NCBI GenBank assembly: GCA_030272155.1
Contig: CP126204.1
Span: 372,001-436,000, forward strand
Length of the DNA stretch: 64,000 nucleotides
From: Tetradesmus obliquus
Taxonomy: Eukaryota; Chlorophyta; Chlorophyceae; Sphaeropleales; Scenedesmaceae
Direction of reading: 5' to 3'
Of the stretch, positions 1 through 64,000 are shown in pieces. Under the pieces are notes generated by a model. It saw only the letters and a program-made list of their open reading frames with translations. It was not told where the DNA came from and ran no database searches. Both the position numbers and the translations under genes were made by a program. The number at the start of each line of letters is the position of its first letter. Positions within the stretch are counted from its first letter, which is position 1.

Positions 1-29
1 AGCGCAAACAATCTCACTGTTACCACATG

Positions 30-115
30 CTCACAGCCGTGCTGCCAGCTTTTGCGCTTTGCAGCCAGGATGTCCAGCGCCATGCGCAACACATCCTCTG
101 CAGGCACGCAGCCAT
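30..115 (-). repeat. Exon echo: 3' half of RPAC1 exon 8, beyond the stop codon
   Basis: Minus-strand reading gives [19 protein letters not shown], nearly the same as the genuine last exon ([19 protein letters not shown]). After AAK the copy is one base shorter than the original, so it loses the original stop frame. It lies 3' of the real stop and is best read as a degenerate tandem copy in the 3' UTR. Confidence 0.75.
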
Positions 116-264
116 AGACTTGCGGAGCTTCACACCATCATACCTTCCCCGTCCTTGCGGCCCAATCACAGCACACTGGCTGCATGATGTGCCGCCGCAT
201 TGCAGCCGCCGTGTTGCAGCCGCCGTGTTGCAGCCCCTTCAGCGGAGCACAAGCACACACTGCC

Positions 265-1235
265 TCACAGCCGCGCTGCCAGCTTGTCACACTTTGCAGC
301 CAGGATGTCCAGCGCCATGCGGAACAAGTCCTCTGCAGGCACGCAGCCGGTGCTCTCTATAGTGAAGATGAAGTGGTCCTTGCGCTTGCGCAACTGGATG
401 GCCTCGGCCCACTTGTCTTGCTCCAGCAGCCGCCGCACCTGCAAGTTTGAAAGAACACAGCATCATACCAGGAACTTAAGTAACACATGGTGAAGATGAA
501 GTGGTCCTTGCGCTTGCGCAGCTGGATGGTTTCAGCCCACTTTTCCTGCTCCAGCAGCCGCCGCACCTGCATTTTTTTTGAAAGAACACAGCATTGAAAG
601 CAGTACAGTTTGTGTGAAGCTGAAAGGTTGCGGGTATAAGGCGCTTGCGCAGCTGGTTGGGCTCAGCTAACCGCTGCTGCTGCAAGGGCCTGACTCTTGC
701 GCAAGGAGAGCTACACATGCACAACTGCAGACGACTGCGCGCCTATACACAGCTTGAACCACAGGCACATACATACACACACCCATACCCAGCACGCACA
801 CATGTACACAAGCACAAAAGCAGGCGCGTAAACAAAAACAGCAATGTGACAAGCCTCAGGGCTTTCCCAAAAGGGTTTTGATCACTGCAGGTTTCCCTGC
901 TACAAATCTACTATCTAGTTAGCAAGCATCATAGGCCGGAGTCACACAGCCACACAAACAGGCAAACATGGCACCACACCAACACCCTGCAACTGGCAAC
1001 ACACACGACAAATCGCTGAGCACCAACATGCATCAACTGCACCATGCTACAGCAGCAAACAGCAACAAAAAACGTCTGTCTGCATCTTCACCAACCTCTG
1101 CCACATACACACACAGCTGAGCAGCACCATGCCACTGCCATAGCTGCCAAGCGCACGCACGGCAGCAGCAACAACAGCAGCTGTAAACACGCAGCAGCAT
1201 ATCTGTAACAATATCTACACAGCAGCCGCACATGC

Positions 1236-1268
<33 letters not shown>

Positions 1269-1910
1269 CTCACCCGCTCGAGTTTGTCCTCATGCTGCCG
1301 CGCCTCCCCCACCACCAGCTGCCCATCCTGCACACTGAACAGGCCAGGCACTGCTGCTGCCAGCTCCTGCGCATCTGCACCTGCCACTGGCTGCAGCAGC
1401 ACCACCTCAGGATGCAGCCTGTACCATGCTGTGGCCACTGGAGACCACTTGGCATGCTCGCGGCCCACGCCTTTCACTGCATGTGCTTCCAGCTCTATGC
1501 ACTGCAAGGGTGACAGCAGCAGAAGCAGCAGCAGCAAGGAGAAGTCAGCTGCAGCAGCAGCAGCAGCCGAGGCCTCCAGCGGTGCACACAGCTGACAGTG
1601 CCGCACTTGCACATGTCGGACCTCGGCGGAGCAGTTCGTGCTTGTGCCTGCCGCGCAGCAGAGCAACATGTTGCAGCAACATGTTGCAGCAATGTCATAG
1701 CAGGGAAAGCTGTGCAGGTGCTGCAGCCATGCAAGCCAGCGCAGCCAACACTACATTTAGGAAACAACTGCTACATCCTGATGTGTCAGATATGAAATCA
1801 GCAGGTGTGGCAAGACCCACCTGGCCAGGACGCAGCTTTGCCAGCAGAATGTTTTGCTCCACGTCCCGAGGTGGCGCTGCAAACATGCCCTCCTGGCTGC
1901 GGCCAAACCT

Positions 1911-1955
<45 letters not shown>

Positions 1956-4900
1956 CATATGCACGGTCAACGTCGGCCAAACATGGTCAAACATGGATTG
2001 GTGTGCCGCCGGTCCAGCGCCAGCACTTGGTGAAACCCAGCAGCACAGGTGTATTTGGGGTGATGGCCGCATAGCTGCAGCAGCAATATGTGCCATTGCT
2101 GTGGCAGTATGTTCCCTGGCTGAGTAATGACAGCATACATGCGGCTGGTGAGCAGCCGCATGCATTGCATGGCCAGGAGGTGCAGCACATCTGCTTGCCT
2201 GACTTGCATAGCTCGGCACGGCACTTACAAGCCGTGCGGCTGCCAATGCAGGCAGAAATTGTGAAGACAGCACAGCATATTGCACTACTGTGACCCATGC
2301 CCTCTGCCGCAGTGCACTGCGGCTGCCAATGCATGCAGTGATTGTGAAAACGGCAGAGCATGGTGCACTGCTGTAGCCCCGCGCCCTATGCCGCAGTGCA
2401 CTTGCTGTCTTAGGAAGTACCTCCACCTGCTGATGCTGTAGCTGCTGCTGCTGATAAACGCCGCTGCCTCGCCGCCGCTGCTTCACACTTTGTCCTTCAA
2501 AGCAATTTTTCAACTGCTGCTGCTGCCCCTGCTCTTACAAGGCTTGCATCACAAGGAGAATCAGAATTAACAAAACAAAGTAACGCCCTGCTCACCTGCA
2601 GCCAGTCTCGTCAGGCAGCTCACTGCCACTAGGCAGCCACACCAAATCGCGCGAGTACACTGCAGTACACAGCAGGCGGCGCAGGACACACAAGTTTACG
2701 TAAGTAAGTGCAGGCAAAGTCAATGCTAGAGCATAGGCAAGCGCAGCAGTCAGTCATGGCAGAGCTACTTGACCAAAGGCAATTAGTGTACACAGCAGAC
2801 GCTCTCCTGCAAGTCTGCACATAACGTTACATGCTCTCCTACGCCCAAAAACATCCTAGCGCAGCTGTCAGCCAATCAAACAGCCCTCACCATTGTCGTT
2901 GACCATGCTGCCGTCCGCCACCCTGCTGCAGCGCACCGCCAGCCCAACATGCCGCAAGCATGCCGTCAAACATGCCTCAAGCAGCCTCAAACATGCGTCA
3001 AACTGCCCTCTAACACGCAACAAACATGCCTCAAACAGCCCCCACCTTTGTCGTTGACCATGCTGCCGTCAGCCGCCCTGCTGCGGCGCACCGCCAGCCA
3101 GTCAAACATGACTTAAACATGCGTCAAACATCCGGTCAAACATGCCCCAAACAGCCCTCACCTTTGTCGTTGACCATGCTGCCGTCAGCCGCCCTGCTGC
3201 AGCGCACCGCCAGCTTGAACACAACGCTGTTGCTCTCCCCGGCAGCATCCTCACCAGAGCGCCACGCCAGCGCGTTGGGGTCCACTGCAAGTGGCACCAG
3301 GCCCAGCCTGTGCGACAGCACCTCATCCTGCAGTGCATCAGTCAGGGTGGCAGTGCAGTGCAAGGCAGCATGGCAGTATGTGAGCAGGTGCTGCTGTGCT
3401 GGGGTGCACTGCCAGGGGCACCAGGCCCAGCCTGTGCGACAGCACCTCATCCTGCAATTCAATAATGGGGAGTAGCAGCACAAGACATTAAGAGGCCTTG
3501 CAAGCGAGCTAGGGTCAACTGCCAGGGGTGCCAAGCTCAGCCTGTGGGACAGCACCTCGTCCTGCAATTTATGAATGGGGAGTAGCAGCACAACACATTA
3601 AGAGCCTTGCAAGCGAGCTAGGGTCCACTGCAAGCGGCACCAGCCCCAGCCTGTGCGACAGCACCTCGTCCTACAGTAAAGCAGTAGCAGTGCCAGTGCA
3701 GGGCAAGGCAGCAAGGCAGTATGTGAGCAGGTGCTGATGTGCTGGGGTCCACTGCTAGGGGCACCAAGCCCAGCCTGTGCGACAGCACCTCATCCTGTAG
3801 GGTAGCAGCAGTGCAGAGCAGCATGCTTGCGTTGTTCACAATGAAGACGGGCTCGATTGCAACAGTGGGCACCTCACTGATGAGGATGCGCTGCAGCATC
3901 TGAAGCGGCCAAGGTGGGTGTGGCACCGAGGCAATCAGGCAAGCTGTGACAGGCTAGCAAGGTGAAGGGGAAGGGGAGGGGCACAACAGGCACAACACCA
4001 AACAAGATGTGCAGACATGCTGCACGGCCGCGCCTCCCACCTGGATGATGCTTGTGTTGTTTACGATGAACATGTGCTCGATCGCAACAGTGGGCACCTC
4101 GCTGATGAGGATGCGGCGCAGCATTTGAAGGCCAGAGTGTGTGTGGCACCGCGGCAACGGGGCAAGCTGTGACAGGCTAGCGAGGCGGAGGGGAGGGGGA
4201 GGGGCACCTCAGGCACAACACAACCACCAAACAAGATGTGCAGACACGCTGCACGGTTGCGCCGCCTACCTGGATGATGCTTGTGTTGTTCACGATGAAC
4301 ACGTGCTCGATCGCAACGGTGGGCACCTCGCTGATGAGGATGCGGCGCAGCGCATTCGCGAGCGCGGGGTCTGCGCCGATCATGTCGAACACCAGCCGCT
4401 CCGGCGACAGCTCCTGCACCTGTGCATATACACACCACACCACATTTGCACAAACAAAGCTTGAGACACGTCCGCAGCAGCCGGCAGCTCTTTGCAATGT
4501 TTGTGCGCGTGGCAGCGCGGCTACGGCGGTTGTGCTGTGCTGCCGCTGTTGCTGCTGTTCTTGCATTGTCAACTCCAACCGCTTGCTGATTGCTGCTGCC
4601 GTTGAAAGCTGTTATGCCAAGCAGCCTGCTCCCTCAGCTGCCCTGTGTCCTGCTGCTGCTGCCAACTTGGCTGCTGCGTCTTGTGCAGTGCGCCAGCCGC
4701 ATTTCCCACTGTTGCAGACCACCCACCTGTATGTCAAAGTGGCCTGTCCAATCATCCAAGTCCCATGCATTGTCCACAGCCGCCTGCCTCTACTGCTGCA
4801 CACTCGCATGCACGCCACGCGCGCTGTTCTATCAGCTGCCCCTGTGTTCTGCTTGGCTGCTGCATTTTGCGCCATGCATCCGCCGCATTTCTCCCTGTTG

Positions 4901-5616
4901 CAGACCACGCACCTGTATGTCGAAGTGGCCTGTCCAGTCGTCAAAATCCCAAGCATTGTCCACACCCAGCGGCATGTACATGCTGGCTGAGGTGGCGGTG
5001 CTGGTCTGCAGTTGAAAAGGATTCCAAGTGCAGTATGAAAGGCAGGCAAGGTGCAGGATGGCTTGATGGATTGGCTACAGCTGATGACTGCAAGAGTGTC
5101 TGCACTTGATGTGTGGGTCAGTGGTGTGTCTAGGGGGTGCTGGAGGAGTTGGCTGTGGCTGCATAGACTGAAGAGCAGACTTATGGCAGCTCCATGCTGA
5201 AATGTCTTGAGCCACATTCACACCAGGAACAGTGGCTACTGCTGTCTCGGCAGACAGAGATACAGGCACAGTCTGGCCGTGCGGCGACTGTGCAGCAGCT
5301 GCAAGGCAAATGAAACATGCACTGGTTCATTGGCCTAGATTGAAACTACCCAGCACAGCTGCTTCCTCCTGAGCAGCTGAGGTGCTGTTGCAATGTAAAC
5401 GGCCTGCTTTGAGGCAGTCAAGATGGGCAGGCCATGCAGCACTCTGAACTGCATGTGGCACAGCCGGCTGGCAGCACAGCAGCCTGACAGCCGTAGACTG
5501 CCGACCCTGGCCTGAGCACTCACGTGGGTGTTGACGATTGGGCCACATAGCACATAGTTCCGTTGAGTTTCTAGAGGCTCCGGCAGCTTCTGCTTCTCCT
5601 TCTTCTTCTTTGTCAT
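265..5616 (-). CDS. RPAC1: RNA polymerase I and III subunit RPAC1 (AC40/POLR1C), 8 exons
   Basis: Shared alpha-like subunit of RNA polymerases I and III; it pairs with AC19 to form the nuclear assembly platform for rRNA and tRNA transcription. Exons on the minus strand: 5616-5524, 5005-4913, 4419-4270, 3327-3162, 2659-2596, 1908-1821, 1501-1274, 438-265; every junction keeps phase and gives 351 residues, within the family range. The family signature runs across exons 3-4: [20 protein letters not shown], then [20 protein letters not shown], then [17 protein letters not shown]. Later come [23 protein letters not shown] and, near the C terminus, [15 protein letters not shown]. The start ATG precedes a Lys-rich stretch ([10 protein letters not shown]). 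Stop TGA is at 265-267. Introns carry about a dozen degraded copies of exon edges. The gene is divergent from the Gln/Ser-rich gene. Identification is secure; the choice among duplicated exon starts rests on phase and on continuity with the rest of the exon. Confidence 0.93.
488..690 (-). repeat. Exon echoes: two copies of the 5' half of RPAC1 exon 8
   Basis: The segment 488-566 reads [20 protein letters not shown] plus DHFIFTM behind a CTGCAG-like acceptor, then turns into intron. A weaker copy at about 635-685 retains only [14 protein letters not shown]. Both lie upstream (in gene sense) of genuine exon 8 at 438-265. They could serve as decoy acceptors. Confidence 0.75.
1911..1953 (-). repeat. 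(CTG)n tract forming the acceptor of RPAC1 exon 6
   Basis: On the gene's strand this is an uninterrupted CTG run ending in CAG directly before exon 6 (which starts with GTTTGGCC). A second run of the same triplet, 1231-1267, follows the donor of exon 7. The repeat takes the place of a normal polypyrimidine tract. Confidence 0.85.
2236..2400. repeat. Tandem duplication inside RPAC1 intron 5
   Basis: Two diverged copies of about 88 bp start with gcggctgccaatgca, one near 2236 and one near 2324, and share a downstream block ending tgccgcagtgcact. There is no exon in the unit, so duplication here is not confined to exon edges. Confidence 0.6.
2890..3103 (-). repeat. Exon echoes: two copies of the 3' end of RPAC1 exon 4
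   Basis: Segments at 2890-2948 and 3046-3103 repeat the exon end that encodes LAVRC(S)[11 protein letters not shown] plus its donor, found in genuine form at 3162-3228. Both lie downstream of the real exon in gene sense. The surrounding intron is built of variants of a short caaacatgcctcaaac motif, which travelled with the duplications. Confidence 0.75.
3403..3797 (-). repeat. Exon echoes: four copies of the 5' half of RPAC1 exon 4
   Basis: Copies at 3403-3451, 3511-3561, 3626-3670 and 3746-3794 each read [17 protein letters not shown] or a close variant behind a CTGCAG/CTACAG/CTGTAG acceptor, and then break off into intron. The genuine exon begins at 3327 and is the only one that continues into the rest of the domain. 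Unit spacing is about 110-120 bp. Confidence 0.85.
3823..4117 (-). repeat. Exon echoes: two copies of the 3' half of RPAC1 exon 3
   Basis: Segments 4041-4117 and 3823-3895 read [13 protein letters not shown](H/P)VFIVNN plus the exon end; the first still has a donor-like GTGGGA. Genuine exon 3 is at 4419-4270, upstream in gene sense. Flanking intron sequence (agcaaggtgaagggg, gcacaacaccaaacaagatg) is co-duplicated. Confidence 0.8.
4722..4790 (-). repeat. Exon echo: 3' half of RPAC1 exon 2
   Basis: Minus-strand reading gives [18 protein letters not shown], a near copy of [18 protein letters not shown] in genuine exon 2 (5005-4913), followed by a donor-like GTGGGT. The spacing to the original is about 190 bp. 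Confidence 0.75.
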
Positions 5617-41400: not shown

Positions 41401-41646
41401 TCACTGCTTGAAGCAGGATACACACAGGTCACGATGTGTGTTTTGGGGGTTGGGGGGCGAATTGTGCGGCGTGGACTGGGCGGGGCAGCTGCGCGCGTCA
41501 CTGCTGGAGGCAGGATACAGACAGGTCAGATTATATCTGCGTGCATGTACTGGCGTGTCTTTGATGGATTGAGCGGGGCAGCTGCATGCATCACTGCTTG
41601 AGGCCGAGTATACGCAGGTGAACGGTGACGATTGTACTTACAATAT

Positions 41647-41680
<34 letters not shown>

Positions 41681-42016: not shown

Positions 42017-42049
<33 letters not shown>

Positions 42050-42607: not shown

Positions 42608-42656
<49 letters not shown>

Positions 42657-42743: not shown

Positions 42744-42802
<59 letters not shown>

Positions 42803-48500: not shown

Positions 48501-49072
48501 GGCAGCGGTGCAGCTGTGCAGCAGCGTTGCTGTGCACAGTTGCATTGCTATATGCTGCGGCGGCAGCAGCAGCAGCAGCGGCAGCAGCAAGTTGGTCCAC
48601 CTGACTGCTAGCTTGCACACCAGCCAGGAAAACCGAAACCTCCTCTCCTCTCTCTTGCATTACTGCAGGAGAAGCTGGGCCATGTGGCGGCCACTGTGGG
48701 CAAGATCGGCGGCAGCGTGGCGGCGACGTGCTTTTGAAGCATTGAGCTAACAATGTAACATGTTATATTGCCCCTTGCAGGAGAAGCTGGGCCACGTGGC
48801 GGCCACTGTGGGCAAGATTGGCGGCAGCGTGGCGGCCACGTGCTTTGTGGCGCTGCTCATCAAGTGGTGCGTGATCAACCGGGGCTTCCCGCTGAGCAAG
48901 ATCAACGACAACGGGCCCGTGCAGGTAATTGTTTCTTGTTGCAACCTTCCTATGTAAATTCGAAAGCATGTCCCAGTAAGACTTGTGAGCGACATCAGCA
49001 TGCACTGCGGCTTCCCGTTCAGCAAAATTAACGACAACGGGCCCGTGCAGGTGAGGGCTGCATGCTTACTTT

Positions 49073-49129
<57 letters not shown>

Positions 49130-49218
49130 GCCAGTCAACGCGCAGCTGTCGACTTGCCGCTAGGGGCAGCGCTTCTCTTTGCAGAACATCGTCGTTTGTG
49201 AGGGGTGTTTGGTGACTG

Positions 49219-49260
<42 letters not shown>

Positions 49261-49340
49261 AGTTTTTCCTGTACTCTGTGACCATCATTGTGGTTGTCAT
49301 CTTCGAGGGCCTGCAATGATAATCATGCTGCTGCTGCTGT

Positions 49341-49376
<36 letters not shown>

Positions 49377-50412
49377 ATTGACATATTTGATATGCAGTTT
49401 TTCATGTACAGCGTGACCATCATCGTGGTGGCCATCCCTGGGGGCTGTCACTGACTGTTCTGCTGCTGCTTCTGCTGCTTCTGCTGCTGCTGCTTCTGCT
49501 GCTGCTGCTACTGCTGCAATGATATCTGGTATGCAGTTCTTCCTGTACTCTGTCACCATCATCGTTGTGGCCATCCCCGAGGGCCTGCCCCTGGCGGTGA
49601 CCATGGCTCTGGCCTACTCCATGAAGAAGATGATGAAGGACCAGAACTTCGTGAGGTGTGTGGGGTGTACTAGTATTATTTTCATCATTGTTATTATCAT
49701 CATAGTAGTAATTTGTCATTGACTTTATTTATTTGATTCATGGTAAAATATTTGTTATACCTGGTGTCTCTGTCATGCTGGTCCTTGATGGCGCTGGCCT
49801 ACTCCATGAAGAAGATGATGAAGGACCAGAACTTCGTGAGGTGCGCAGACGTGGCTCGCTTTTTGACATCAAACAGTCTGAGGTGCTTAGCACCGTGTTT
49901 TGTCGCGCTGTTTGGTGGCTGCAGCATGCTGCAGGTATCCGCCTTGCCAGGGCATTTTTTTCTGACAGTGCTCGCACTTAGCCTTGCGGTATGTTTGCTG
50001 CTGCTGCTGCTTGTGTTGTCATTGCATATGCAGACTGCTGTCTGTGAGACCATGGGTGTTGCCACAGCCATCTGCTCCACCATAGTTGCTGACACTGCTG
50101 CTGCTGCTGCTGCTCTGCTGCTGCTGCTGCTGCTGCTGCAGGGTTCTGGCCGCCTGTAAGACGATGGGTGGTGCCACAGCCATCTGCTCCGACAAGACCG
50201 GCACGCTCATCGAGAACCGCGCTGCTGCTGCTGCTGCTGCAGGGTTCTGGCTGCCTGTGAGACCATGGGCGGGGCCACAGCCATCTGCTCCGACAAGACC
50301 GGCACACTCGCAGAGAACCGCCGCTGCTGCTGCTACTGCTGCTGCTGCATGTGCAGGCTGCTGTCTGTCTGTAAGACAATGGGTTTTGCCACAGCCATCT
50401 GCTCCACCATTT

Positions 50413-50443
<31 letters not shown>

Positions 50444-53339: not shown

Positions 53340-53398
<59 letters not shown>

Positions 53399-54029
53399 TC
53401 TGCCTGCAGGCACTGAGGTGGCCAAGGAGGCGGCTGACATTGTCATCCTGGATGACAACTTCTCATCCATCGTCAAGTGCGTGCTGACGGGCTACTTGGC
53501 TGATTGGGCTGATGCATTTTGTTGCAGCCAGCTGTCCAGTCCAGTAGCAGTGCAATGTGTGCTTGCAAGCATATTGCCAGACTGAACAGCATGAGCACCG
53601 AGCACTTGCAGCTGGTCTCTCCTCTTTATGCACACTAAAAACACAGCAGCAGTCATTGAACTGCGCATGTGCATATTGTTGTGTTTGTAGTCTCACATTC
53701 AAGCTGCACACATTTCAAAGAATTTACACAACTTTTCCCCTGCACCATGTGTTGTGCTGTGCTGCCCGCCATCCACCCCGCAGGTCGGTGCTGTGGGGGC
53801 GCAGCGTGTTCACCTCCATCCGGAAGTTCCTGCAGTTCCAGCTCACCGTGAACTTTGTAGCTCTCATCGTGAGCTTTGTGGGAGCCATGGTGGGCGGCCG
53901 CATGCCGCTGAACGTGCTGCAGCTGCTGTGGGTGAACCTGATCATGGACACCATGGGGGCGCTGGCGCTGGCCACGGAGACGCCTTCCTCAAAGCTGCTG
54001 GATGAAAAGCCTGCCGGCCGCTCCGTGAG

Positions 54030-54066
<37 letters not shown>

Positions 54067-57066
54067 AGTGACGGTTGCTTGTGTTGGCTGCATTGTACTT
54101 CTGGGCAGCAAGCACATGGCACAGCCGTTGTGGATGACGCTAATGCTTGCTGGTGCACACCGCTCAGCACATCACTTGCCTTGCCAGCTGACCTGGACTG
54201 CTGCTGCTGCTGCTGCTTGCAGGAGCCGCTGATCAACGGCAAGATGTTCAAGCACATCCTGCTGCAGGGCGTCTACCAGCTCTTCTGGATGTTCCTCTTC
54301 CTGTACGGCCTACCCACCCTTGTGCCGCAACGCTACGCCTTCACCACCCCCTGCCAGCTGTACACCCCAGACTTCTGCACCAACAGTGTGGCCATACAGC
54401 AGCTGGGCATGGCTCCTGCGGATGCGGCCCGCTACTGCAGCTATGTGAGCAGCTGCAGCCTGCCGTGCAGCAGCAGCAGCAGTGTGTGTCCGCTGGGAGA
54501 TGCTGCTGCTGCTGCGGCTGCTGACCCGGCTGCTGCCATCTGCAAGGGGCAGGCTGGCTGCAGCGACTACGACACCTTCAAGTGAGTGCTGCCGCTGCTG
54601 CTGCTGTTGCTGCTCCTGCTGCTGCTGCTGCTGCTGCTGTGCTTGCAATGTGGTGGCTCAGCACCAAGCTCAGGTACCTGATGGTGAGGTGCCAGTATCG
54701 TGAAAAACTTCAATGTTGCACTTTCGCTGCATTTCCATGAAACGACCGGTGCATAATGTGAACACCTGTATGTGCAACGGATCTTGAACACACCGGTATG
54801 CTGCCTGCTGCCCTGTAGGGGGCTGCAGTCAGCGCTGGAGCGGTCGCCTGCACCAGCAGCAGGATATAATCAAATGTTGCAAACCTTCTGCAAACATGCC
54901 ATCATGACCCTATGCTTGCTCGCCTCTTTGTTCTGCCCTGCAGGGGGCTGCAGTCAGCGCTGGAGCGCCGGCTGCACCAGCAGCAGGACAAGGACTTCCT
55001 CAGGGTGGCCTCAGTGCTGTTCAACACCTTCATCTTCGCACAGGTGCGGTTGGCAGCTTGTTTGTTTTGGCTGTGTTGGTAGTGCCTCCCTGCTGCATGT
55101 GCCTACCTGCGCGTAGCCTCAGTACTGTTCAACGCCTTCATCTTTGCACAGGTGCGGTTGGCAGCATGGATGTCTCAGCACCAGATAAGTTGTTGCCGCA
55201 CTGGCCTGTGTATTTGTCACACACATACAATTGCAGCTGCACAGGCCAGCCGTCACAGCTGATGCATATGGCCTGCTGGCAGTCCAGTGCACTTCACACC
55301 AACAAATATCTATGCTGATAGGTAGATAGATATAGGGGTTACATGGAGTGTTCATGCTGCATACGCCACCACAGACACCTGATAAAATAGGAAGCTGCAA
55401 GCAGCTCAGCTCGGGCTGTCTCTCTGAGGTTCAACCCCAGGAAAGCCTCTGTCTATGCTCAAGTCGACCTGCTTGCCTCACCGCTGCTGCAGATTTCAAC
55501 CTGGTGGTCAGCCGCCACAGTCGATGCTTACCTTGCATGGCTGTACAGTGCTTGTCAAATCCATGCAAAACCCTTTGCCGACACAAGCCTGCTGTGCCGC
55601 TGCCTTGTCAAAACATTGCAGATCTTCAACCTGGTGGTCAGCCGCCGCATTAATGACGAGTACAACTTCTTTGAGGGCCTGCACAAGTCGACGCTGTTCT
55701 TGGTCATCCTGGCCATCATTGTGTTCTGCCAGGTGAGGTTGGAATGCCTCTATTGTAGCCTGCCTCTACTTGTGGTTGTTGGGGTCCGCTCACGTGTTTC
55801 AGGTGTTTGAGCAAGCACACGTGCATTACATCTGCTTTTGCTGGAGATCCTGGCCGTCATTGTGTTCTTCCAGGTAGGGCTGCTGCCTCCACTGCTTTAC
55901 AGGTGTAGCGTAAAGGCTACCTAGCTAGGTCTTTTTGTGGTCGTTGAGTTTGGTGTTGAGTTCACGCTGTTCCTGGTCATCCTGGGCATCATTGTGTTCT
56001 GCCAAGCGAGCTGGTGTGGCTGTGGTTGTCCCTTTCGCTGTTGCACCTGTTGCCTTTTGGGGTGTGTTGAAACGCTGTTTCTGGTCGTCATTTTGTCTGC
56101 CAGGTGAGGCCGCTGCCTCCGCTGCATTGTACATCTCCTTCTAGTTGCTGCATATGACTACTCATCTGTTGTGCTGCTTTGCTTACCCCAGCTGCCTACG
56201 CTGCTGCTGCTGCACCACGCTGTCTACATGCAGACCATGATAACGGATTTCTGGGCTTCTTTTCCGCTGTGTTTGTTGACACTGTCTCCTCTGCTGCTGC
56301 TGCTGCTGCAACTGCCGCAAACCATGATCATGAACCTCCTGTGCTTCTTCTTCAAGGTGCAGCCGCTGACACACCACGCATGTCCTCTGCTGCTGCTGCT
56401 GCTGCTACTGCAGCAGACCATGCTTATGAACTTCCTGGGCTTCTTTTTAAAGGTGCAGCTGCTGACATCTCCTCTGCTGCTGCTGCTGCTGCCGTTGCTG
56501 TATATGTTTCTTTGCTGCAGACCAGTGTCATGAACTTCCTGGGCTTCTTCAAGGTGCAGCCGCTAACATCACCTGCCACATATCTGCTGCTGCTGCTGCT
56601 GCTGTATCGATATTCACCGCAGACCATGATCATGAACTTCCTGGGCTTCTTCTTCAAGGTGCAACCCCTCACCTGGCAGGAGTGGCTCTTCACCATCGCC
56701 ATCGGATCAGGCGCCATGCTGTGGTCAACCGCCGTGCGCTTCCTCTCCCGCAACGTCAGCTGCGGACAGGTCAGCATCTTCACTGCCATAGGCAACAGGC
56801 TGGCGCGCATGAACCAGGTCACATCAAAGCAGATGGCTGCAAGCCATGCTGTGTATGACGGCCCTGGGAGCAAGCAGATGACTGTGCATGATGCTGTGGC
56901 GCTGGCTCGGGGCAAGGCTGCTGCTGCTGAGTCAGCAGAGGCAGAAGCTGAAAAGGCGGCAGAGGGTAAAAAGAGGGGCGGCTGGCTCAAGGGCAAGGGC
57001 AAAACCACAAAGCAGAACGAGCGCACAATCAGCGGCAGGAGCGACAGTGCGGCGTCCCTGAACTGA
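45502..57066 (+). CDS. P-type IIB (PMCA-type) Ca2+-ATPase, 18 exons
   Basis: Exports Ca2+ from the cytosol at the plasma membrane or an endomembrane. Exons: 45502-45555, 45914-46138, 46925-47027, 47262-47411, 47693-47823, 48370-48480, 48781-48924, 49537-49655, 50446-50779, 51462-51882, 52232-52365, 52608-52755, 53410-53476, 53784-54024, 54223-54581, 54944-55043, 55622-55732, 56623-57066. All junctions close in phase: 1,131 residues, usual size. Motifs: actuator [12 protein letters not shown]4 [20 protein letters not shown]; phosphorylation [14 protein letters not shown]; hinge [21 protein letters not shown]6 [17 protein letters not shown]. The N-terminus is short, unlike the long calmodulin-binding N-terminus of land-plant ACA pumps. 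The C-terminal tail has [20 protein letters not shown], where animal PMCAs bind calmodulin, and a Lys-rich end ([12 protein letters not shown]); C-terminal autoinhibition is inference. Nearly every intron holds echoes of the adjoining exon. Confidence 0.95.
46243..46275 (+). repeat. Exon echo: 3' edge of Ca2+-ATPase exon 2
   Basis: Repeats ctgctgctgtgcgcggcagc-like sequence plus actg and a GTGCAT donor-like site, copying the end of exon 2 (LLLCAAAL) about 105 bp downstream of the genuine donor. Confidence 0.65.
47146..47190 (+). repeat. Exon echo: head of Ca2+-ATPase exon 4
   Basis: Behind a CATGCAG acceptor, gcgccattaatgacttccaa and onward reads [12 protein letters not shown], copying [12 protein letters not shown] of the exon at 47262. 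It lies about 114 bp upstream. Confidence 0.85.
47472..47640 (+). repeat. Exon echoes: two copies of the 3' end of Ca2+-ATPase exon 4
   Basis: The genuine end is [19 protein letters not shown]. Copies at 47472-47525 ([19 protein letters not shown] with a GTGCGG donor) and 47580-47636 ([19 protein letters not shown]) follow in the intron, about 105 bp apart. Confidence 0.9.
47918..48085 (+). repeat. Exon echoes: two copies of the 3' end of Ca2+-ATPase exon 5
   Basis: The genuine end is [10 protein letters not shown] with donor GTGAGG at 47824. Copies at about 47918-47952 and 48043-48080 repeat the codons and (the first) the donor; both are followed by CTG-rich stretches like the original intron start. 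Confidence 0.8.
48670..48737 (+). repeat. Exon echo: head of Ca2+-ATPase exon 7
   Basis: Behind a TACTGCAG acceptor the copy reads [20 protein letters not shown], nearly identical at DNA level to the genuine exon head 111 bp downstream (48781). It then reaches an in-frame TGA. A copy of the tail of the same exon ([14 protein letters not shown] with GTGAGG) lies at 49006-49050. Confidence 0.9.
49075..49128. repeat. (CAG)18 microsatellite in Ca2+-ATPase intron 7
   Basis: A perfect CAG run on the coding strand. It is in the opposite orientation to the CTG runs that end at acceptors, and lies mid-intron, not at a splice site. Confidence 0.95.
49219..49446 (+). repeat. Exon echoes: two copies of the head of Ca2+-ATPase exon 8 with their CTG acceptors
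   Basis: Copies at 49263-49315 ([18 protein letters not shown]) and 49398-49446 ([17 protein letters not shown]) precede the genuine exon head at 49537 ([20 protein letters not shown]). Each is preceded by a (CTG)n run and a CAG. A tail copy of the same exon ([18 protein letters not shown]-like) lies at 49788-49842. Confidence 0.9.
50033..50409 (+). repeat. Exon echoes: four copies of the head of the phosphorylation-site exon
   Basis: Copies at 50033-50077, 50142-50220, 50243-50321 and 50356-50409 precede genuine exon 9 (50446). Two of them run through the catalytic aspartate motif ([15 protein letters not shown] and [15 protein letters not shown]) before dissolving into CTG repeats; the other two stop at ATAICST. 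Each follows a CAG acceptor, three of them behind CTG runs. Confidence 0.95.
50943..51347 (+). repeat. Exon echoes: tail of Ca2+-ATPase exon 9 and head of exon 10
   Basis: 50943-51022 copies the exon 9 end ([13 protein letters not shown], then [13 protein letters not shown]) with a donor GTGCGT, and carries a short insertion-type shift. 51315-51347 copies the exon 10 head ([11 protein letters not shown]) behind CCGCAG, about 150 bp before the genuine one at 51462. Confidence 0.85.
52840..53180 (+). repeat. Exon echoes: four copies of the 3' end of Ca2+-ATPase exon 12
   Basis: The genuine end is [12 protein letters not shown] at 52755. Copies: 52846-52875 ([11 protein letters not shown]), 52950-52970 (LAMGIAG), 53025-53092 ([20 protein letters not shown], a longer one) and 53140-53178 ([10 protein letters not shown]). 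Most keep a GTGAGG or GTGCG donor. Confidence 0.9.
54819..55152 (+). repeat. Exon echoes flanking Ca2+-ATPase exon 16
   Basis: A head copy at 54819-54866 ([15 protein letters not shown] behind CTGTAG) lies 125 bp upstream of the genuine head at 54944. A tail copy at 55114-55152 ([13 protein letters not shown] with GTGCGG) lies downstream of the genuine donor at 55044. Confidence 0.9.
55488..56110 (+). repeat. Exon echoes flanking Ca2+-ATPase exon 17
   Basis: A head copy (CTGCAG, then DFNLVVSRH) at about 55490-55520 lies upstream of 55622. Tail copies near 55848-55874 (ILAVIVFFQ with GTAGGG), 55960-56008 ([15 protein letters not shown]) and 56063-56106 ([17 protein letters not shown] remnant with GTGAGG) lie downstream of the genuine donor at 55733. 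Confidence 0.8.
56228..56575 (+). repeat. Exon echoes: four copies of the head of the last Ca2+-ATPase exon
   Basis: Copies at about 56231-56290 ([10 protein letters not shown]), 56317-56372 ([17 protein letters not shown]), 56416-56470 ([17 protein letters not shown]) and 56520-56574 ([16 protein letters not shown]) precede the genuine head at 56623 ([17 protein letters not shown]). Each has its own CAG or CAA acceptor-like site behind CTG-rich DNA. Confidence 0.93.
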
Positions 57067-57179
57067 TGGGATTAGATCCTTTAGAGTTCTGTGTGATGCG
57101 CCATGGCTGAAAGTTCTGGCGCGAGTGGAGCTTGCACGATGAGTGAGCAGCTCTGGCTGTACTGCAGCTGGAGCTGATT

Positions 57180-57339
57180 ATTCGAGGCATGCCATGCTGA
57201 GTCAGCAGCAGAGGAAGTTGAGAAGGCAGCAGAGGGCAAGAAGAGCGGCGGCTGGCTCAAGGGCAAGGGCAAGAAAGATGCGAAGCAGTACGAGCGGACA
57301 ACCAGCGGCAGGAGCGACAGCGCGGCATCCCTGAACTGA
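57180..57339 (+). repeat. Copy of the Ca2+-ATPase C-terminal cassette, 3' of the stop, frame intact
   Basis: From 57199 the sequence reads [19 protein letters not shown], then LKGKGKKDAKQYERTTSG and RSDSAASLN followed by TGA at 57337-57339. It matches the genuine C-terminus over its whole length with substitutions but no frame damage, including its own stop. It may be a plain 3' UTR duplication or an alternative last exon. Confidence 0.88.
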
Positions 57340-59521
57340 TTCGGGTGTGTCTGCTGGCTGATTGTGCACTAATGAGTGATCCGTTGCGGGGTGTGAGCAG
57401 TCTTGGCCACGCTGTATGTGGCAGCTGCCGGCTGGTGGCAGGCGGCTTGGTGACTGGTGTCAAATCCGCCTTGTATTAGAAGCGATGGTGTATATGCGGT
57501 AATGTGCACAGCTGGAGTGGAGTGGAGGAGCCGGTGCTTGACTGGCTGAGGCAGTTGACTCGTAGCAGGCGGTTTGATGAATGGAGCCACATCTGCATTG
57601 TATTAAGAGTGATTGTGTGTATGCTGCGCAGCTGGGAGCGGAGAAACAGGCATGTGGCTGCCCAATTGGCTGGCTGAGTGACCAGCAGCTGTTGATTTGA
57701 GGTTTGAAGTGCCTGCAGAGGCCAATAGCGGGGTTTGAGTTTCAGCTCGTTGCTCGAGGTGAATAGCCAAGTAGAGTACCTGGCGCTGCATGATGAAGGA
57801 CGCTGCTGCAGCACCAAGGCGCACTGCTGTGCCCTTGGTTTCTGCATGCATGTATGCAACTTGTGTCTTGATGCTTAGGAGTTGCTGCAGTGTTGTTACT
57901 AGAGCAGTTCAGCGGGTGTAGGTTTTTTAAAGCCGACAGCCTGTTGTTTATACAAGAGATCGGGATGAGCTGTGGTGCACAGAAATCACAGTCTGAAAGC
58001 GAGCCAGAGTTGTGTCTCGCCTTGTGTTCTGCAAGCATGCACAGTGTGCAGTCCACAGCTGCCACTGCCTGCTGCCAGCAGAAGGCTGTTGCATTCGTAA
58101 CTCTCCGTTTTATGGCAAATGCATTCAATGGCAGCATGTCAAATCTCCTTTCATATCATCACATACCAGAAACCAAAGGCAGTGTGGACGTTGGCTTCTA
58201 TGTGTGTCTGCTTTCTGCGTGGCTGCCAGGTCAGTGCTTCATTTCTGAAGGTCATGTGTTGAATCAAAAACACAACTTGATCCGGTGTGCGGCACAACGC
58301 AATTGCTGCTGTTGTGCGCTGGGTTGCTTTGTCATCATGGTCAGCGCTTGCTTGAGCTACTCGCATGATCACAGCCTGTGATAGCCGGCATAGCTGAGGA
58401 GAAGTGATTGTGGCTAGCTCATGTTCACGTTTTACCCTCACTTTCCTGCTATCAGTTTGATTGTGGCAAGCTGGTTGTGAGTGCTGCCTGCTGTTTCAGC
58501 AGTGGCTGCTGCTACCATGATGGTGTTGTGCCTGCAAAAGTCAGCCAACCAATCGCATTGGTGGCCTTGCTGAAAATCGCAGGACCACCAGAGGTGTTCA
58601 AACTCTTTGAGGCACGGTTGAGGCTTCAGCACATGTTGTTACTGCATGAACCAGGCACAGGCTGCCAACTGTGCGCCTTGGTCAACGACCTGCACATCAA
58701 GTGTGTGTTGCATGGAATTGCATGCTACAACAGCGCGTCCAACCCAATCATATCGTTATTATTAGCTGGTTGCTTCACAGTGTTGCTTGCCGCTACAACG
58801 ATGTGCAGCACACAGCCTTGCAGCCTCGAGTCCTGACTGTCTGTGGCGTTTGCTGTGAAATTGTGGCAACTGCCATACTCTGCTGCAAGCAAAGAAGGAG
58901 TGGCATGTGCTGCAGTTGAGCACAGAGTGAAGCCTCTCACCATGGCGAGGACATGTCATTGGGGCTGAGGGTGGCTGCTTCTGCTGGCCTCTCGGAGCAT
59001 ATCTTTTGTTTAGCTGTGTGGACACTATGGCAATGCTGTGTGGACATTGTGGCACCAGCTCCTGCAGGCTCATCAGGCTGCTGTTGTCGGTGCTGCGCTC
59101 AAGTTGCTTCACATCAAAGTAGGCACAGGACCAGCATGGTGTGCTGCTGTGGCTTGCATGGTAACCTAATTACTGCAAATAAGAATTATTGTATCACGGC
59201 TGGCTGGTTGCACATGCGCATTATTTCGTTTGCTAGCAGCGCGACCATCTCAATGCGCATTGATTGCAAGAACGTTATCAGCTCAACATACAACTGTGAG
59301 CGCCTGCCACCAGCAAACTCACGGTATGCACATAGCTCCTGCGTATGCATTCCAGTCAACCACTTGACCAAAAACCCAAACCAGAACATTAGCCCTGGAC
59401 TGCATGAGCCTCACAGCAACTCCATGCAACAAAAAGGCGACCGATGCCCGGTATTCTAGTTGGGGCTGCCACACTGGCAGGCTTGCGCTTGGCAAGCTCT
59501 CATCTAATCAGCAACCACCTG
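57340..59521. other. Convergent intergenic region, Ca2+-ATPase to DRC11
   Basis: 2.2 kb between two converging genes, so it holds both 3' UTRs. A diverged tandem duplication of about 130 bp is visible (57430-57515 against 57560-57640, sharing gcaggcgg-t-tg-tga and ttgtatta). Open frames here have no recognisable motif. Confidence 0.45.
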
Positions 59522-62500
59522 CTACTTCTTTTTCTTCTTTCCCTTTTCATCCTTTGCTCCCTTTTTGCTGCTGCCGCCGCCAGCGGCTGCTGCTGCCTTG
59601 TCTGCTGCCGCGCCCTTGATTGCTGCCAGTGCTGGCGTGCGGTCTGCCCACTTGTGCAGCGCTTCGTCCACTTCCTGAGGCACAGCTTGCACCTGCACAC
59701 CACCAGGTGACAGCAAGCCATGCATGCGCAGTCAGCGCAGCAGTTGGGTACAGCTGCAAGCACGTAATACACGAAGCTTTGAGTCTTGCTGCACAGGATA
59801 GACAAAGCGTAGCTGGGTACAAATAGATCGCTTGAGCGCCCAAATGCTGCCAGATGCAAGACACATGATGCCAGCCGCAGCAGCCCCTTGGTGACCAGCT
59901 AGCAGCCGCAGCGCAGCGCTCACCCTGCAGAGCCAGTGCAGGATCTCCTGTATGTCCACTGGGTGCATCTTCAGCCGCTCCCGCCGCACTGGCGTCAGCA
60001 GGCCAGACACCACAGCGTCCAGCGCACCTGCAGAAACACACCGGAGACAGCAAAAAGCACATCAGCCCTGCAAACAACTGATTGGGGAATGTACCTGCAT
60101 TTCAGATGTGAGCTGCACTCGGCTGATGTGTTTGGGGAGCAGCACAGCTGCTGCATCCTGCCTGCGCTGCAGCTGCTGAGATCACATAATAAAAAGATAG
60201 CTGGTCATGTCTCGTCTTCTGCATCAACACTGGCACATCCGTTCCTTTTGTCGCAGCCATTTGAAGCATCTACTGCACCTCACCTGCTGCGTAGCCCTCG
60301 CTGAGCTGCGCCAGCGTGCTGAGGTCAAAGTCGTATGCCAGCTTGCCGCCGTGCCGCGCAAACAGGCCCGGCCAGATCAGCTGCGAACAAGAACAGCCAG
60401 CGATCGGTATTGTTATGCAGCATACAGCAGCACAGCTGGCCTGGGAACCACAGAAGGCCATGCGCCACCTGCCCTCAGCCCATCAACTTGCAAACAACGC
60501 CAATCGCCATGCGCTGAGTCCACAGCCATGGCCCAGGCTGCCACCCCACTCCTGCATACAATACATATCACCCCACGCCCCACCACTCACCCGCCGTGCC
60601 GCATAATCTGGCAGCGGCATGTGCAGCGCCTTGCCCCACACGCCCATGAAGGCCTTCTCGTCCTTCTTGGCAGCCAGCCACGGCTCGCGGCTGGCGCCCA
60701 CCATCAGCACGCGGTCGCCCGGGGCCAGGCCCTTGAGCTCGCGCAGCAGCTCCTTCTTGATGTGGCTGAAGGGCTCCTGCAGCAGCAGCAGCAGCAGCAG
60801 CCAGTGCAAAACAAACAAGTGCAAAACATGAAGTTATCAGCAAAATGTCAAATGGGCATTTGCTGCAACTGCAACGCGCAGCTCTTTTGGTGTGGAGCGC
60901 TGTGGCTGCATGCCACACCATGTGCAGCCGCGCACCTGCCCCCCGAACTCCTTGGCCTTCTTCTTGTCGCTGACAAACACCTTCTCCACCTCGTCAATGT
61001 AGATCACGGACGGCGCCATGGTCTTCGCCACCTGCAGCAGCAAGCACCAGGGCACTGTTTGATGCAAGCGCATTCTTGAAACTGGTCCTACCAGCTGGAG
61101 CTGGTACAGCACAACGTACATCTGCAGGCAATGCATGCATGTATCCTGGCAGCAGCTGCCTGGGTTGCTGTGTAGCCTCTGCAGCCCCACCTTGAACACC
61201 ATGTGCAGCAGCATGGCCACTGCCTTGCCTGGGTAGTGGCCGTCAGTGTTGCGCGGCGACAGGTCGAAGAAGCAGGAGCCACTCAGGTGCGCGATGGCCT
61301 GGCAGCGCAGGCAGGCAGGCAGGGGCAGCGCGCGGTTAGAATCCGCTCAAGTTCAGCTGTTGTTCCCTTCCTGGACGGTTTCTTAGCTGCTGCTAGCCTG
61401 CATCCCATGTTCGGCTCAAAGGCAGCACCATTCAAACTGACAGCAATAACCAACATGCACAGGACCGCACACAAGAGTGCAAGCCTACCTATCCATGTAC
61501 ATGTCGCACCACTGCGCAGCTGTACACAGCGCGCACCTGCGCCACCATGGTCTTGCCAGTGCTGGGCGCGCCGTACAGCAGCAGGCTGGGCTCAACCGAG
61601 ACATACAGCAGATACGAAGCAACATTCATGGCTAGGACACAGCAACATTCATGGCTAGGACACAGCAACATTCATGACAGACATGCACGACTGTTCAAAG
61701 ACCTGCCATACCACCGCCCACCTGCGCCACCATGGTCTTGCCAGTGCTGGGCGCGCCGTACAGCAGCAGGCTCTTGATGTGCGGCAGCCGCTCATGCACC
61801 AGCTGGCTGCCCAGCGGCAGGATCGCAAACTCCGTCACCGCCTGGCGGATCTGACGCCACCAACCACGCACACAAACAGTCAACAGCAGCAGCAGCAGCA
61901 GAAGCAGTCGGAACTGTAGCCGCTAGCTGGCAACAACTGGATTGCAGCGTGTGTTTGGCAGTGCCGAACCCTTCTGCGTGTGATATACGGTGCGCTCAGG
62001 GCGCACCTGCGCCAGCGAGAGGTCTGGGTTGATGCCAACAGCGACAGCAGCAGCAGCAGCAGCAGCATGCGTAGCTGGCAGCCAGCAGCAAGTGACATCT
62101 GTTTTGCACCGTATGTGGCCCCACCTGCGCCGACGAGGGGTCTGGGATGACGCCTGCCTTCTCCAGCGTGATCCCACCAACAGCGACAGCAGCAGCAGCA
62201 GCAGCAGCAGCATGCGTAGCCGCTAGCTGGCAGCCAGCAGCAAATGACATCTGTTTTGCACCGTATGTGGCCCCACCTGTGCCAGCGAGGGGTCTGGGAT
62301 GATGCCCGCCTTCTCCAGCGTTGCTCCCATGAAGGAGTAGCCGCCCAGGTAGTCTGCCAGCTCCACCTTGGGGGGGCTCACCAGCACGCCGTTGCTGGCC
62401 AGCTCAGCAAACAAGGATTCCATGGAGCGGTCGGCCTGCAGGGAAGAAGGGATTGACACATGCAGCCTGTTGGTGTGAAATGCAGGGGGATCTGAAGGCA

Positions 62501-64000
62501 GTGGCAGTGGCAGTGCAGCACGCCGTTGCTGGCCAACTCGGCAAACAGGGACTCCATGGAGCGGTCGGCCTGCAGTGGAGCCACAGGGAGGTCATTGGCG
62601 TGAAATGCAAGGATTTTGAAGGCAGTGCACGCAGTTGCTGGCCAGCAAACAGCGACTCCATGGAGTTTTCGGCCTGCAGCGAAGCAGAAGCAGTGGAGAG
62701 CAGTGGAGAAGAGGCAGACACAGGGAGGCTGCTGGTGTGGGCGATGGCGACGCATGAAGCAGTGCTGTACATGTGTACACGCCGTTGCTGGTCAGCTCCG
62801 CAGCTCGGCAAACAGCGACTCCATTGAGCGGTCGGCCTGCAGTGCAGCAGAAACAGACACATGAAGCCTGTTGATGTGAAGTGCAAGAGGGTCTGAAGTT
62901 GTGCACCGCATGTACACGCCATTGCTGGCCAGCTCAGCAAACAGCAACACCATGGAGCGGTCGGCCTGCAGTGCAGCAGAAACAGGCACAGGGACGCCAT
63001 TGGCGTGAGGTGCGGGGGGATCAAAGGCATGCACCGCATGTGCACGCCGTTGCTGGCCAGCTCGGCAAACAGCGACTCCATGGAGCGCTCGGCCTGGTGT
63101 GCAACAGAGGAAGACACAGGGAGGCAGTTCAATACCTGTGTGCCTGCGGTTACTGGCCAGCTGGCTAACAGAGGCTCCATGGAGCGGCCACCCTGGCGCA
63201 ACACAGGCAGACACACAAGATTATTTGCGGCGTAACACTGTGTGGGGCGAGTACAGCTAGCTTTCCCAGGCAGTTACAGCTGTACATCGTGCACATAAGC
63301 ACACCGTGGGGTCATTTTTCTTCTTGCCCTTGCCCCCCTTTGCCTTCTTGCCGCCCGCCCCTTTCTTGGCCTTGCCGCCCTTCTTCTTCTTGGCCTTCTT
63401 GCCTGCTTTTGCCGCTGCCTCTGCCGCCACCAGCTCCTTCAGGTTGGCCAGCAGCGTGCGCATCTCCTCGTCAACCTGCAGGGGCATGAACGAAGCCCTA
63501 GTGCAACTGAGACACGCAGGCTACGACGTGGCTTCGGCATTACGTTTCATGTGGTGGTCAGGCGTCCATTCCAGGCTGGATCCAGCTGGTCCTGGCAGCT
63601 GCACAGCAAATGCGCGTCCACATACTTGCCTGGAATTGAACATCTTAGTTGTTGCTGCCTGGGCGCTACTGCCTGCTGCCGCGGCATCCCCATACAGTGC
63701 AGTGAGGCAACACGCTGCATTTCATGAGACCCGCCCAGCCGCACCTGCTGCCGGACCTCCTCAAACACAAGCGGCCGCAGCTCATCTTTCAGCAGCTCCG
63801 GGTCGTGCTGCTGCTCCCAGCTGGCGCCCCCAGGGGCGGGCCGCTCCTGCCACTTGCCGATGTACTCAGCCACGGCCCCTTCTATCAGCGGGATGAAGGC
63901 GCTGCTGATGACCTCAGCTGTGCCGCTGCCCTCTGCAGCGGCATCACCTGCAGCGCACAACAGCCACAAGCAGCAGCACTCGGGTTCCCTGTTGGCCACA
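59522..64000 (-). CDS. DRC11: DRC11 (IQCA1-type AAA protein of the nexin-dynein regulatory complex), C-terminal half, 10 exons seen
   Basis: A structural AAA subunit of the N-DRC, which links outer doublets in motile cilia. The gene runs off the right edge. Exons: 63947-63745, 63475-63305, 62435-62277, 61850-61722, 61298-61191, 61031-60936, 60776-60591, 60380-60284, 60027-59924, 59692-59522; all in phase, 473 residues to a TAG. The order matches IQCA1: LRPLVFEEVRQQ plus VDEEMRTLLANLKEL; a Lys/Gly-rich linker (KKAKKKKGGKAKKG); DPT plus ADRSMESLFAELASNGVL; IRQAVTEFAILPLGSQLVHE; Walker A GAPSTGKT; FFDLSPRNTDGHYPGKA; Walker B SVIYIDEVEKVF; RVLMVGASREPW; LSTLAQLSEGYAAG plus ALDAVVSGLLTP. The end is a Lys-rich tail. 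Any IQ motif would lie in the missing N-terminal part. Introns before exon 62435 hold the longest echo array in the window. Confidence 0.93.
61545..61605 (-). repeat. Exon echo: Walker A end of DRC11 exon
   Basis: The minus strand reads SLLLYGAPSTGKTMVAQ followed by a GTGCGC donor, copying the end of the exon at 61850-61722 almost exactly, about 175 bp downstream in gene sense. Confidence 0.92.
61620..61675. repeat. 23-bp tandem repeat, 2.4 copies
   Basis: The unit caacattcatggctaggacacag is repeated twice perfectly with a partial third copy, between the Walker A exon and its echo. Confidence 0.92.
62003..62172 (-). repeat. Exon echoes: two copies of the tail of DRC11 exon 62435-62277
   Basis: The genuine end is EKAGIIPDPSLAQ with donor GTGGGG. 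Copies: 62122-62172 (EKAGVIPDPSSAQ with GTGGGG) and about 62005-62035 (INPDLSLAQ with GTGCGC). Both are followed by a (CTG)n run and an ac-tgctggctgccagc block, also duplicated. Confidence 0.88.
62522..63195 (-). repeat. Exon echo array: six copies of the head of a DRC11 exon
   Basis: Copies of acceptor CTGCAG plus ADRSMESLFAELASNGV or close variants lie at about 62522-62573, 62634-62680, 62783-62841, 62922-62973, 63051-63097 and 63149-63193, upstream of the genuine exon head at 62435. Spacing varies from about 97 to 150 bp. Each breaks off into its own short intron-like spacer; variants include AENSMESLFAGQQL and ADRSMVLLFAELASNGV. Between them a block such as cacagggaggc or tgaaatgcaagg recurs. 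Confidence 0.95.

Follow-up and report, generated by a model that had tools for sequence, protein, structure and literature searches.

Tandem duplication across an intron-exon boundary has been described in the RdRp gene of potato (Ma, Lan and Niu 2016, PMC4974935). Here we report local copies of exon edges, referred to as echoes, in introns of several genes in a stretch of 64,000 base pairs (bp) of the green alga Tetradesmus obliquus (GenBank assembly GCA_030272155.1, contig CP126204.1, positions 372,001 to 436,000), called the window and numbered from its first base. Exon-edge copies in introns were first noticed in a preliminary description made from the sequence alone and are confirmed by the present analysis; searches of the open-access literature found no account of such copies in an alga. 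According to the excerpts of the papers on which this comparison draws, the potato duplicate, like the echoes, spans an intron tail and an exon head, has signals inherited from the parental boundary and turned a small exonic piece intronic. The potato gene is, however, one case, which gained a new intron plus an extra exon piece in the messenger RNA, whereas here copies accompany 30 of the 64 edges in three genes and, apart from P0001, are missing from the homologous proteins. The model given in a review (PMC3443670) shares with the echoes local tandem duplication within genes and the duplication of splice sites, but there the duplicated exon itself becomes the intron, whereas the echoes reproduce a boundary that was already there and add length to an intron already present. 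Polymerase alpha-primase fill-in at DNA breaks (PMC8355091) also yields small direct duplications for which repeats are not needed; in the excerpted account, however, these are short insertions (<100 bp) in mouse and human cells, with no link to exon edges. Introners (PMC9860276) are likewise a mass change of introns, also in green algae, but form dispersed families, in contrast to the echoes, which are local and come from the adjoining exon; the introner paper has no mention of Tetradesmus, Scenedesmus or tandem.

We consider it probable that the echoes were left behind by local tandem duplications that occur frequently and measure about 120 bp, an orphan exon edge being tolerated and the exon half being kept by constraint plus conversion. 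Three genes picked out in the preliminary description were studied, their exons being fixed by spliced alignment to homologous proteins. The gene of a Ca2+-transporting ATPase of the plant ACA/PMCA type (45502..57066, + strand) has 18 exons according to the alignment of the T. obliquus protein P0001, and over 95% of its length its draft translation matches a T. obliquus protein with 97% identity. The RPAC1 gene, encoding a subunit of RNA polymerases I/III (265..5616, - strand), has 8 exons (spliced alignments of P0164, P0123, P0125 and P0191; Pfam RNA_pol_L). The Amidohydrolase_3 gene (31192..36176, - strand; Pfam match and spliced alignments of P0241-P0243) has four well-supported exons (31192-32236, 32984-33199, 34181-34386 and 34815-35021), its two 5' exons being uncertain.

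Comparison of the window with itself, after masking of simple repeats, yielded 94 near direct pairs (less than 3 kb apart) at a score of at least 30, no far direct and no near inverted pairs, and two far inverted ones; at a score of at least 25 the respective numbers were 114, 6, 2 and 8. The predominance of near direct pairs excludes chance and bears out the boundary-spanning local duplicates of the preliminary description. Edge pieces of up to 90 bp of exon were then scored against a threshold of 15.5, the 99.5% point of 192 shuffles. Exon heads had a copy upstream in 13 of 32 cases and downstream in 2, exon tails a copy downstream in 17 of 32 and upstream in none, while mid-exon pieces had copies in 1 of 13 cases upstream and 3 of 13 downstream, all weak except one. 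The rule that head copies lie upstream and tail copies downstream of the true exon, already stated in the preliminary description, holds in the window.

At a score of at least 18, the three genes contain 53 copies (25 head and 28 tail; 32 in the ATPase, 12 in the RPAC1 and 9 in the amidohydrolase gene) with identities of 0.70-1.00. RPAC1 exon 4, ATPase exon 9 and ATPase exon 18 have four head copies each, and 11 of the 17 ATPase introns hold copies with a score of at least 22. The figure of about 80 copies given earlier is plausible from these 53 plus the pairs in a lipase region and in the gene first named DRC11. Of the six genes then listed, five indeed bear copies: strong copies accompany the de novo predicted exon 41154-41299 of the lipase region and exons 61722-61913 and 62277-62435 of the AAA gene (DRC11). 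The sixth, a secreted protein, has at best one weak tail copy (score 20), if exon 18925-19037 is the one meant. Between about 13 and 28 kb a single pair (17802-17869) reached a score of 25, whereas the neighbouring stretches are rich in pairs; copy density thus varies from gene to gene. Stop codons are spanned too: the last 137 coding bases of the ATPase gene are copied downstream of it (57141..57340, + strand) and the last 84 of the RPAC1 gene in its 3' flank (30..113, - strand), the similarity stopping 1 bp past the TGA in both.

Splice sites were compared in 40 window copies (score of at least 22, reaching to within 3 bp of the edge, stop-codon cases left out) together with random-sample copies chosen by the same rules. 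Among edge-reaching copies with this score, in the window and the random sample described below, AG is kept in 23 of 27 head copies and GT in 28 of 30 tail copies, in agreement with the claim that the splice dinucleotides are retained. The further claim, that the reading frame is often kept, holds for the 33 of 53 copies that have no insertion or deletion (indel); since only 4 of 34 indels are multiples of three, the other 30 breaking the frame, the frame persists only in copies where no indel occurred. Nor do the offsets follow the frame, as 13 of 40 are multiples of three and 27 break it.

The size of the duplicated unit was deduced from the nearest copy per edge (score of at least 22, at most 8 bp from the edge; 29 edges). 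The offset between this copy and its source was 102-151 bp in 19 of the 29. In the 20 edges with an offset below 160 bp, the length of the exon part (28-90 bp) and that of the spacer were anticorrelated (rho -0.72), and the offset had a standard deviation of 14.7, compared to 19.6 under constrained permutation. The anticorrelation suggests a roughly constant repeat unit of about 120 bp, with the boundary anywhere within it. Across 27 introns of the three genes, the two 5' amidohydrolase introns being left out, length increases with copy number (98 +/- 19 bp for each copy; rho 0.67) and averages 357 bp in the 9 introns without copies and 634 bp in the 18 with copies. A paralogous ATPase gene on the same chromosome has 20 exons, some of the same length and phase as in the window gene (103, 148, 67 and 111 bp), a copy at only 1 of 40 edges, and a mean intron of 248 bp, against 481 bp in the window ATPase; of 28 ATPase copies in the window, one resembles the paralog more than its own exon. 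T. obliquus introns average 462 bp and 15.7% of the genome is coding, according to the excerpted genome report (PMC5966456), and border duplication may help to explain these long introns and the low coding share.

We propose the following course of events. A unit of about 120 bp would duplicate in tandem, presumably through a repair or replication event, and may happen to span an exon edge, a splice site or a stop codon. Such a spanning duplication would leave one full exon beside an orphan edge, situated in the intron or beyond the stop codon, and geometry alone would put head copies upstream and tail copies downstream. The orphan would be tolerated, and would stay silent in splicing, the likely reason being that the exon is still defined by the inner acceptor-donor pair. 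Duplications within exons would presumably be removed by selection, those within introns would be free, and repeated events would lengthen introns in steps of about 100-120 bp. The intronic half of a copy would decay, while the exon half would stay similar through exon constraint and, most likely, conversion. Tandem duplication plus tolerance is the well supported part of this reading.

As the three genes were not chosen at random, the fairer estimate for the genome (104.66 Mb, 17 contigs) comes from a random sample of 20 stretches of 10 kb, 19 of them readable, in which 32 of 168 edges (19%) have copies, rather than from the window. The exons of this sample come from a codon-usage exon finder, and some of them will be in error: its models were exact for 20 of 26 internal exons of the genes that had served to train them. 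The finder gave 107 exons, 99 of them in gene context and 84 with enough flank. None of the 168 shuffled controls reached the threshold. At a score of at least 30, 195 of the pairs in the random stretches are direct and near, 6 direct but farther apart, and 10 inverted and near. The heads of the 84 exons have copies upstream in 15 and downstream in 2 cases, the tails downstream in 17 and upstream in 4, so that the side rule recurs outside the window. Copies were also found for single intron windows (11 and 8 of 63) and, when all intron windows of the sampled genes were taken, for 72 of 609 upstream and 79 of 609 downstream. These intron-only copies resemble the edge copies, with a median offset of 132 and a median identity of 0.88. 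Local duplication is thus general; what the exon edges display is the half of it that is permitted, and somewhat more often than intron windows do. The expected enrichment of boundaries over other intron positions is consequently seen in part: in the sample intron windows are nearly as often duplicated as edges, whereas boundary copies dominate in the window ATPase, where 76 non-echo intron windows have 2 copies upstream and 1 downstream.

A number of observations, of which the rest of this section on the two halves of the copies gives most, weigh against the reading of tandem duplication followed by decay. Mid-exon pieces of the random sample have copies in 7 and 7 of 61 cases, which is unexplained unless the exon calls are partly wrong or the proteins repeat. 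The density of pairs ranges from 0 to 32 per 10 kb across the 19 loci (index of dispersion 13), and GC, CTG tracts and coding density do not explain this variation. The intron parts of the nearest copies are related (z>2.5) in 13 of the 29 edges, several of them through CTG tracts, and unrelated in the other 16, some of which are among the most identical copies, with no visible link to exon identity. Identity falls steeply at the junction: in 38 of the 53 window copies (score of at least 23, at most 3 bp from the edge) it is about 0.9 up to the junction and then 0.51 at 7-10 bp, 0.39 at 16-20 bp and 0.28 at 31-45 bp, and 27 random-sample copies show the same fall, while copies of intron windows fade more slowly than the intron side of edge copies (0.65, 0.59 and 0.44). 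This was compared with a simulation of decaying tail copies having a constrained exon, a constrained donor core and 0.3 indels per substitution. Identities at 11-15 and 21-30 bp into the intron are 0.45 and 0.38 in the window and 0.49 and 0.29 in the sample, against 0.60 and 0.48 simulated; in the 12 window copies that are at least 93% identical they are 0.48 and 0.30, against 0.74 and 0.63. The simulation comes near the data only with an approximately threefold faster change of the intron or with one indel per substitution, which speaks against plain neutral decay.

The abrupt end of similarity could also mean that the exon edge is copied specifically, with a breakpoint at the junction, for example by repair templated on a spliced or partly spliced transcript or its complementary DNA (cDNA), which would paste the edge or rewrite an old copy. 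As expected of such copying, both data sets have the identity cliff no more than 6-10 bp from the junction, and in the window this is true even of copies at least 93% identical. A tail copy in one random stretch (L017) is identical in 64 of 64 exon bases, while its flanking units are clearly diverged yet recognisably related, and the tail copy of ATPase exon 8 is 98% identical with unrelated flanks. The flanks at the edges were inspected in window copies with a score of at least 23, at most 8 bp from the edge. The 16 nearest copies without related intron parts and the near lack of intron-only copies in the ATPase gene (3 matches in 152 one-sided tests of the 76 non-echo windows) agree with it as well. 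On the other hand, intron parts are related in the remaining 13, and clean tandem arrays that include the intron exist at RPAC1 exons 3 and 4 and at one exon of random stretch L010. Tandem duplication would readily give the near-constant unit and the strict side rule, some copies end at stop codons, and intron windows are duplicated too. Edge-specific copying is thus unlikely, in our judgement, to be the source of the echoes. Repeated tandem duplication across the boundary, as originally suggested, fits the direct orientation, the locality, the side rule and a unit length near 120 bp. Splice boundaries as such are not singled out by it, however, and the intron side is often lost past 6-10 bp, which is not the outcome of plain duplication.

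Exon-to-copy gene conversion is the preferred although unproven explanation for the extra preservation of the exon half. An exon that does not drift would go on pairing with its copy, whereas the intron halves would drift apart, stop pairing and be lost. Conversion by a constrained exon would set the boundary of similarity at the limit of constraint, whether this is a splice site or a stop codon; with copies over two stop codons, the rule appears to concern constraint, not splicing. One echo in the ATPase gene (50941-51032) keeps a residue, T, that has been lost by the window exon, a state that conversion from exon to copy does not by itself explain. A bolder version, which we find doubtful, would make the exon edge and its copy a self-renewing pair: old copies would be rewritten up to the junction or the stop codon from the exon or from a spliced transcript while the intron between them turns over, and introns would grow outward in steps of about 120 bp around a fully signalled inner ancestral intron that is possibly removed stepwise.

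Rates of difference at codon positions 1, 2 and 3 are 0.080, 0.073 and 0.187 in the 48 window copies with a score of at least 22 and 0.085, 0.066 and 0.125 in 21 sample copies. It is in young copies (0.057, 0.038 and 0.150 at 90-95% identity) that third positions exceed the others most, and in old ones (0.147, 0.147 and 0.246 below 85%) that they do so least, which is not as expected of a copy that starts identical and decays at random; we give this result moderate weight because copies of one exon are not independent. Conversion alone does not produce this silent-site excess of the young copies, for which haplotype exchange or a functional phase is the suggested source. In the first case, unequal exchange between diverged haplotypes would supply exon parts from functional alleles, with mainly silent differences, and intron parts that differ at birth. 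This would account for the excess being strongest in the youngest copies, as well as for the distribution of the differences between copy donors and true donors, which fall at the free positions 4 and 6 in 21 of 60 cases and at positions 1, 2, 3 and 5 in 10 of 120, leaving the donors mostly canonical. The silent divergence implied at birth, about 3-7%, would however be far too low for introns that cannot be aligned, and haplotype exchange therefore seems to us an improbable general cause.

In the second case, the echoes would be selected as decoy or nested splice sites, used for example in the stepwise removal of an inner ancestral intron that has kept its own exon edges on both sides. The donors of tail copies score 4.58, against 3.46 +/- 0.45 for decayed copies (p 0.007, or 0.024 with the other assumed ancestor), another departure from simple decay, although the test is partly ascertained by requiring copies that reach to within 3 bp of the edge. 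When the outermost offsets are subtracted from echo-bearing introns, a median of 262 bp is left, similar to an ordinary intron. Head-copy acceptors, by contrast, are no stronger than decay predicts (5.07 against 4.74 +/- 0.53). Plain function is unlikely because there is no frame rule, copies lie beyond stop codons and the paralogous gene is nearly without echoes. Of the decoy or exon-inclusion roles suggested in the preliminary description, only the strong tail-copy donors speak in favour; there is otherwise little positive evidence, with 13 of 40 offsets being multiples of three, and we regard selected echoes as quite unlikely. Plain neutral decay, for its part, is contradicted by the third-position excess, by an intron part about three times too diverged and by donors that are too strong, while acceptors and indels do fit it.

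Replication at CAG/CTG tracts had also been proposed as the origin of the copies. CTG tracts precede the head copies of ATPase exons 8, 9 and 18, and a tract is found within 30 bp upstream of the acceptor in 9 of 17 ATPase introns, where it may serve as the polypyrimidine tract. Copy ends lie within 15 bp of a tract in 9 of 48 and 8 of 48 cases, a weak excess over the 10% of random intron positions. The RPAC1 gene (2 of 7 acceptors) and the amidohydrolase gene (1 of 5) are tract-poor yet copy-rich, and tract content does not correlate with duplicate density over the 19 loci (rho 0.25, p 0.30). Tract instability is therefore a quite improbable driver of the duplications and can have contributed at most a minor part. 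CTG/CAG tracts are numerous across 1237-54643 of the window.

An assembly artefact, a transposon or an introner family is highly improbable: no point in support was found, copies differ by up to 30%, and echoes are also encoded in the database proteins P0242, from another contig set, and P0001, from another record. When two ATPase intron stretches and an amidohydrolase array were searched for across the genome, with very common words skipped and the best candidates only being scored, all matches were either local copies or pieces of exons of the paralog. Two further candidates were rejected. Duplicated alternative exons, complete with both splice sites, do not agree with copies that hold one edge (at most 90 bp compared; one covers 185 of 206 bp) and whose indels (30 of 34) and offsets (27 of 40) mostly break the frame. 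Intron gain by the AGGT model does not agree with head copies that lie about 90-470 bp before the exon, inside a longer intron, with an acceptor of their own and not at the 5' end of the intron.

Public gene models have taken some of the echoes for exons. P0001 includes 50976-51023, part of the tail copy of ATPase exon 9, as a coding exon; the window version of this extra (nineteenth) piece begins with a stop codon. In the amidohydrolase gene, the echo 33687-33741 (P0242) or 33808-33862 (P0243) is used as a coding exon together with a shortened version of the true exon 34181-34386, which is used in full by P0241, a protein from a contig of 2002 bases resembling a cDNA. Read with its own exons, P0243 (T. 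obliquus, OEZ86_008304) is identical to the window in 523 of 523 residues. P0242 carries another locus prefix (OEZ85) and comes from a T. obliquus contig set different from that of the window, which indicates that predictors were misled differently in what appear to be two assemblies and that the copies exist in both. The practical cost is that database proteins of the same gene differ, as the predictors picked different echoes. By self-comparison, a local repeat is present in 9 of 120 ATPase proteins; several of these repeats are Ser/Gly-rich tails, and only that of P0001 is tied to an echo; none of 63 amidohydrolase proteins has a local repeat, which says little on the introns of the relatives.

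If our reading is correct, this is a genome whose introns measurably lengthen by duplicating their own borders, and each gene would offer many natural tests of how the spliceosome chooses between near-identical sites. A preserved exon half beside a lost intron half also makes a clean puzzle on gene conversion.

The individual copies of the ATPase gene, all on the + strand, illustrate the range of preservation. The head copy of exon 7 (48781-48924) at 48664..48734 is 96% identical over 71 bp, 5 bp of it on the intron side, and has a polypyrimidine tract of its own that differs from that of the true exon. In the tail copy of exon 8 (49537-49655) at 49788..49843, 98% identical over 56 bp, similarity stops 3-5 bp past the splice site. 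Exon 9 (50446-50779), which carries the DKTGTLT motif, is preceded by head copies at 50037..50096 (the farthest, 84% identity), 50142..50220 (90%, behind a CTG tract), 50243..50321 (97% over 79 bp, a clean tandem duplicate that follows a CTG tract) and 50361..50405 (82%), and followed by the tail copy 50941..51032, whose exon part (50941-51023) is 95% identical with one 2-bp indel. This tail copy encodes T where the true window exon encodes A; T is encoded by the true exon of P0001 as well, and the echo thus keeps a state found in the exon of another strain. The head copy of exon 10 (51462-51882) at 51314..51345 is identical in 32 of 32 bases. Exon 12 (52608-52755) has tail copies at 53028..53091 (90% in the exon part) and 52845-52873, and the four head copies of exon 18 lie at 56234-56264 (weak, score 18), 56321-56370, 56417-56466 and 56521-56578.

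On the - strand, the last RPAC1 exon (265-438) has a head copy at 487..594 with 25 bp of nearly identical intron. The four head copies of RPAC1 exon 4 (3162-3327) form an array at 3400..3808 in which the intron parts are also repeated, and the two tail copies of exon 3 (4270-4419) stand in a 229-bp tandem array at 3823..4122. Amidohydrolase exon 34181-34386 has three tail copies within 33687..34017 (33687-33751, 33816-33865 and 33937-34017), and exon 31192-32236 a head copy at 32335..32422 with 92% identity. The local copies around the predicted exon 41154-41299 of the lipase region extend over 41221..41625 on the + strand (head score 41, tail score 50), and those around the two predicted exons of the AAA-type gene over 61527..63215 on the - strand. 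The name DRC11 for the latter is that of the preliminary description; the gene has an AAA match only, of 22.6 bits against a cut-off of 21.2, with no single stretch passing alone.

A Lipase_3 match lies at about 40.2 kb, close to the ATPase gene (39000-57066 for the two together). The annotated protein P0003 of Scenedesmus sp. NREL 46B-D3 combines a Lipase_3 domain, followed by the ATPase, in one protein, which represents either a true fusion or two genes, conserved as neighbours, that were merged in one gene model. Near the lipase region, the 8-base unit TAACCTAA forms a short array at 40804-40856.

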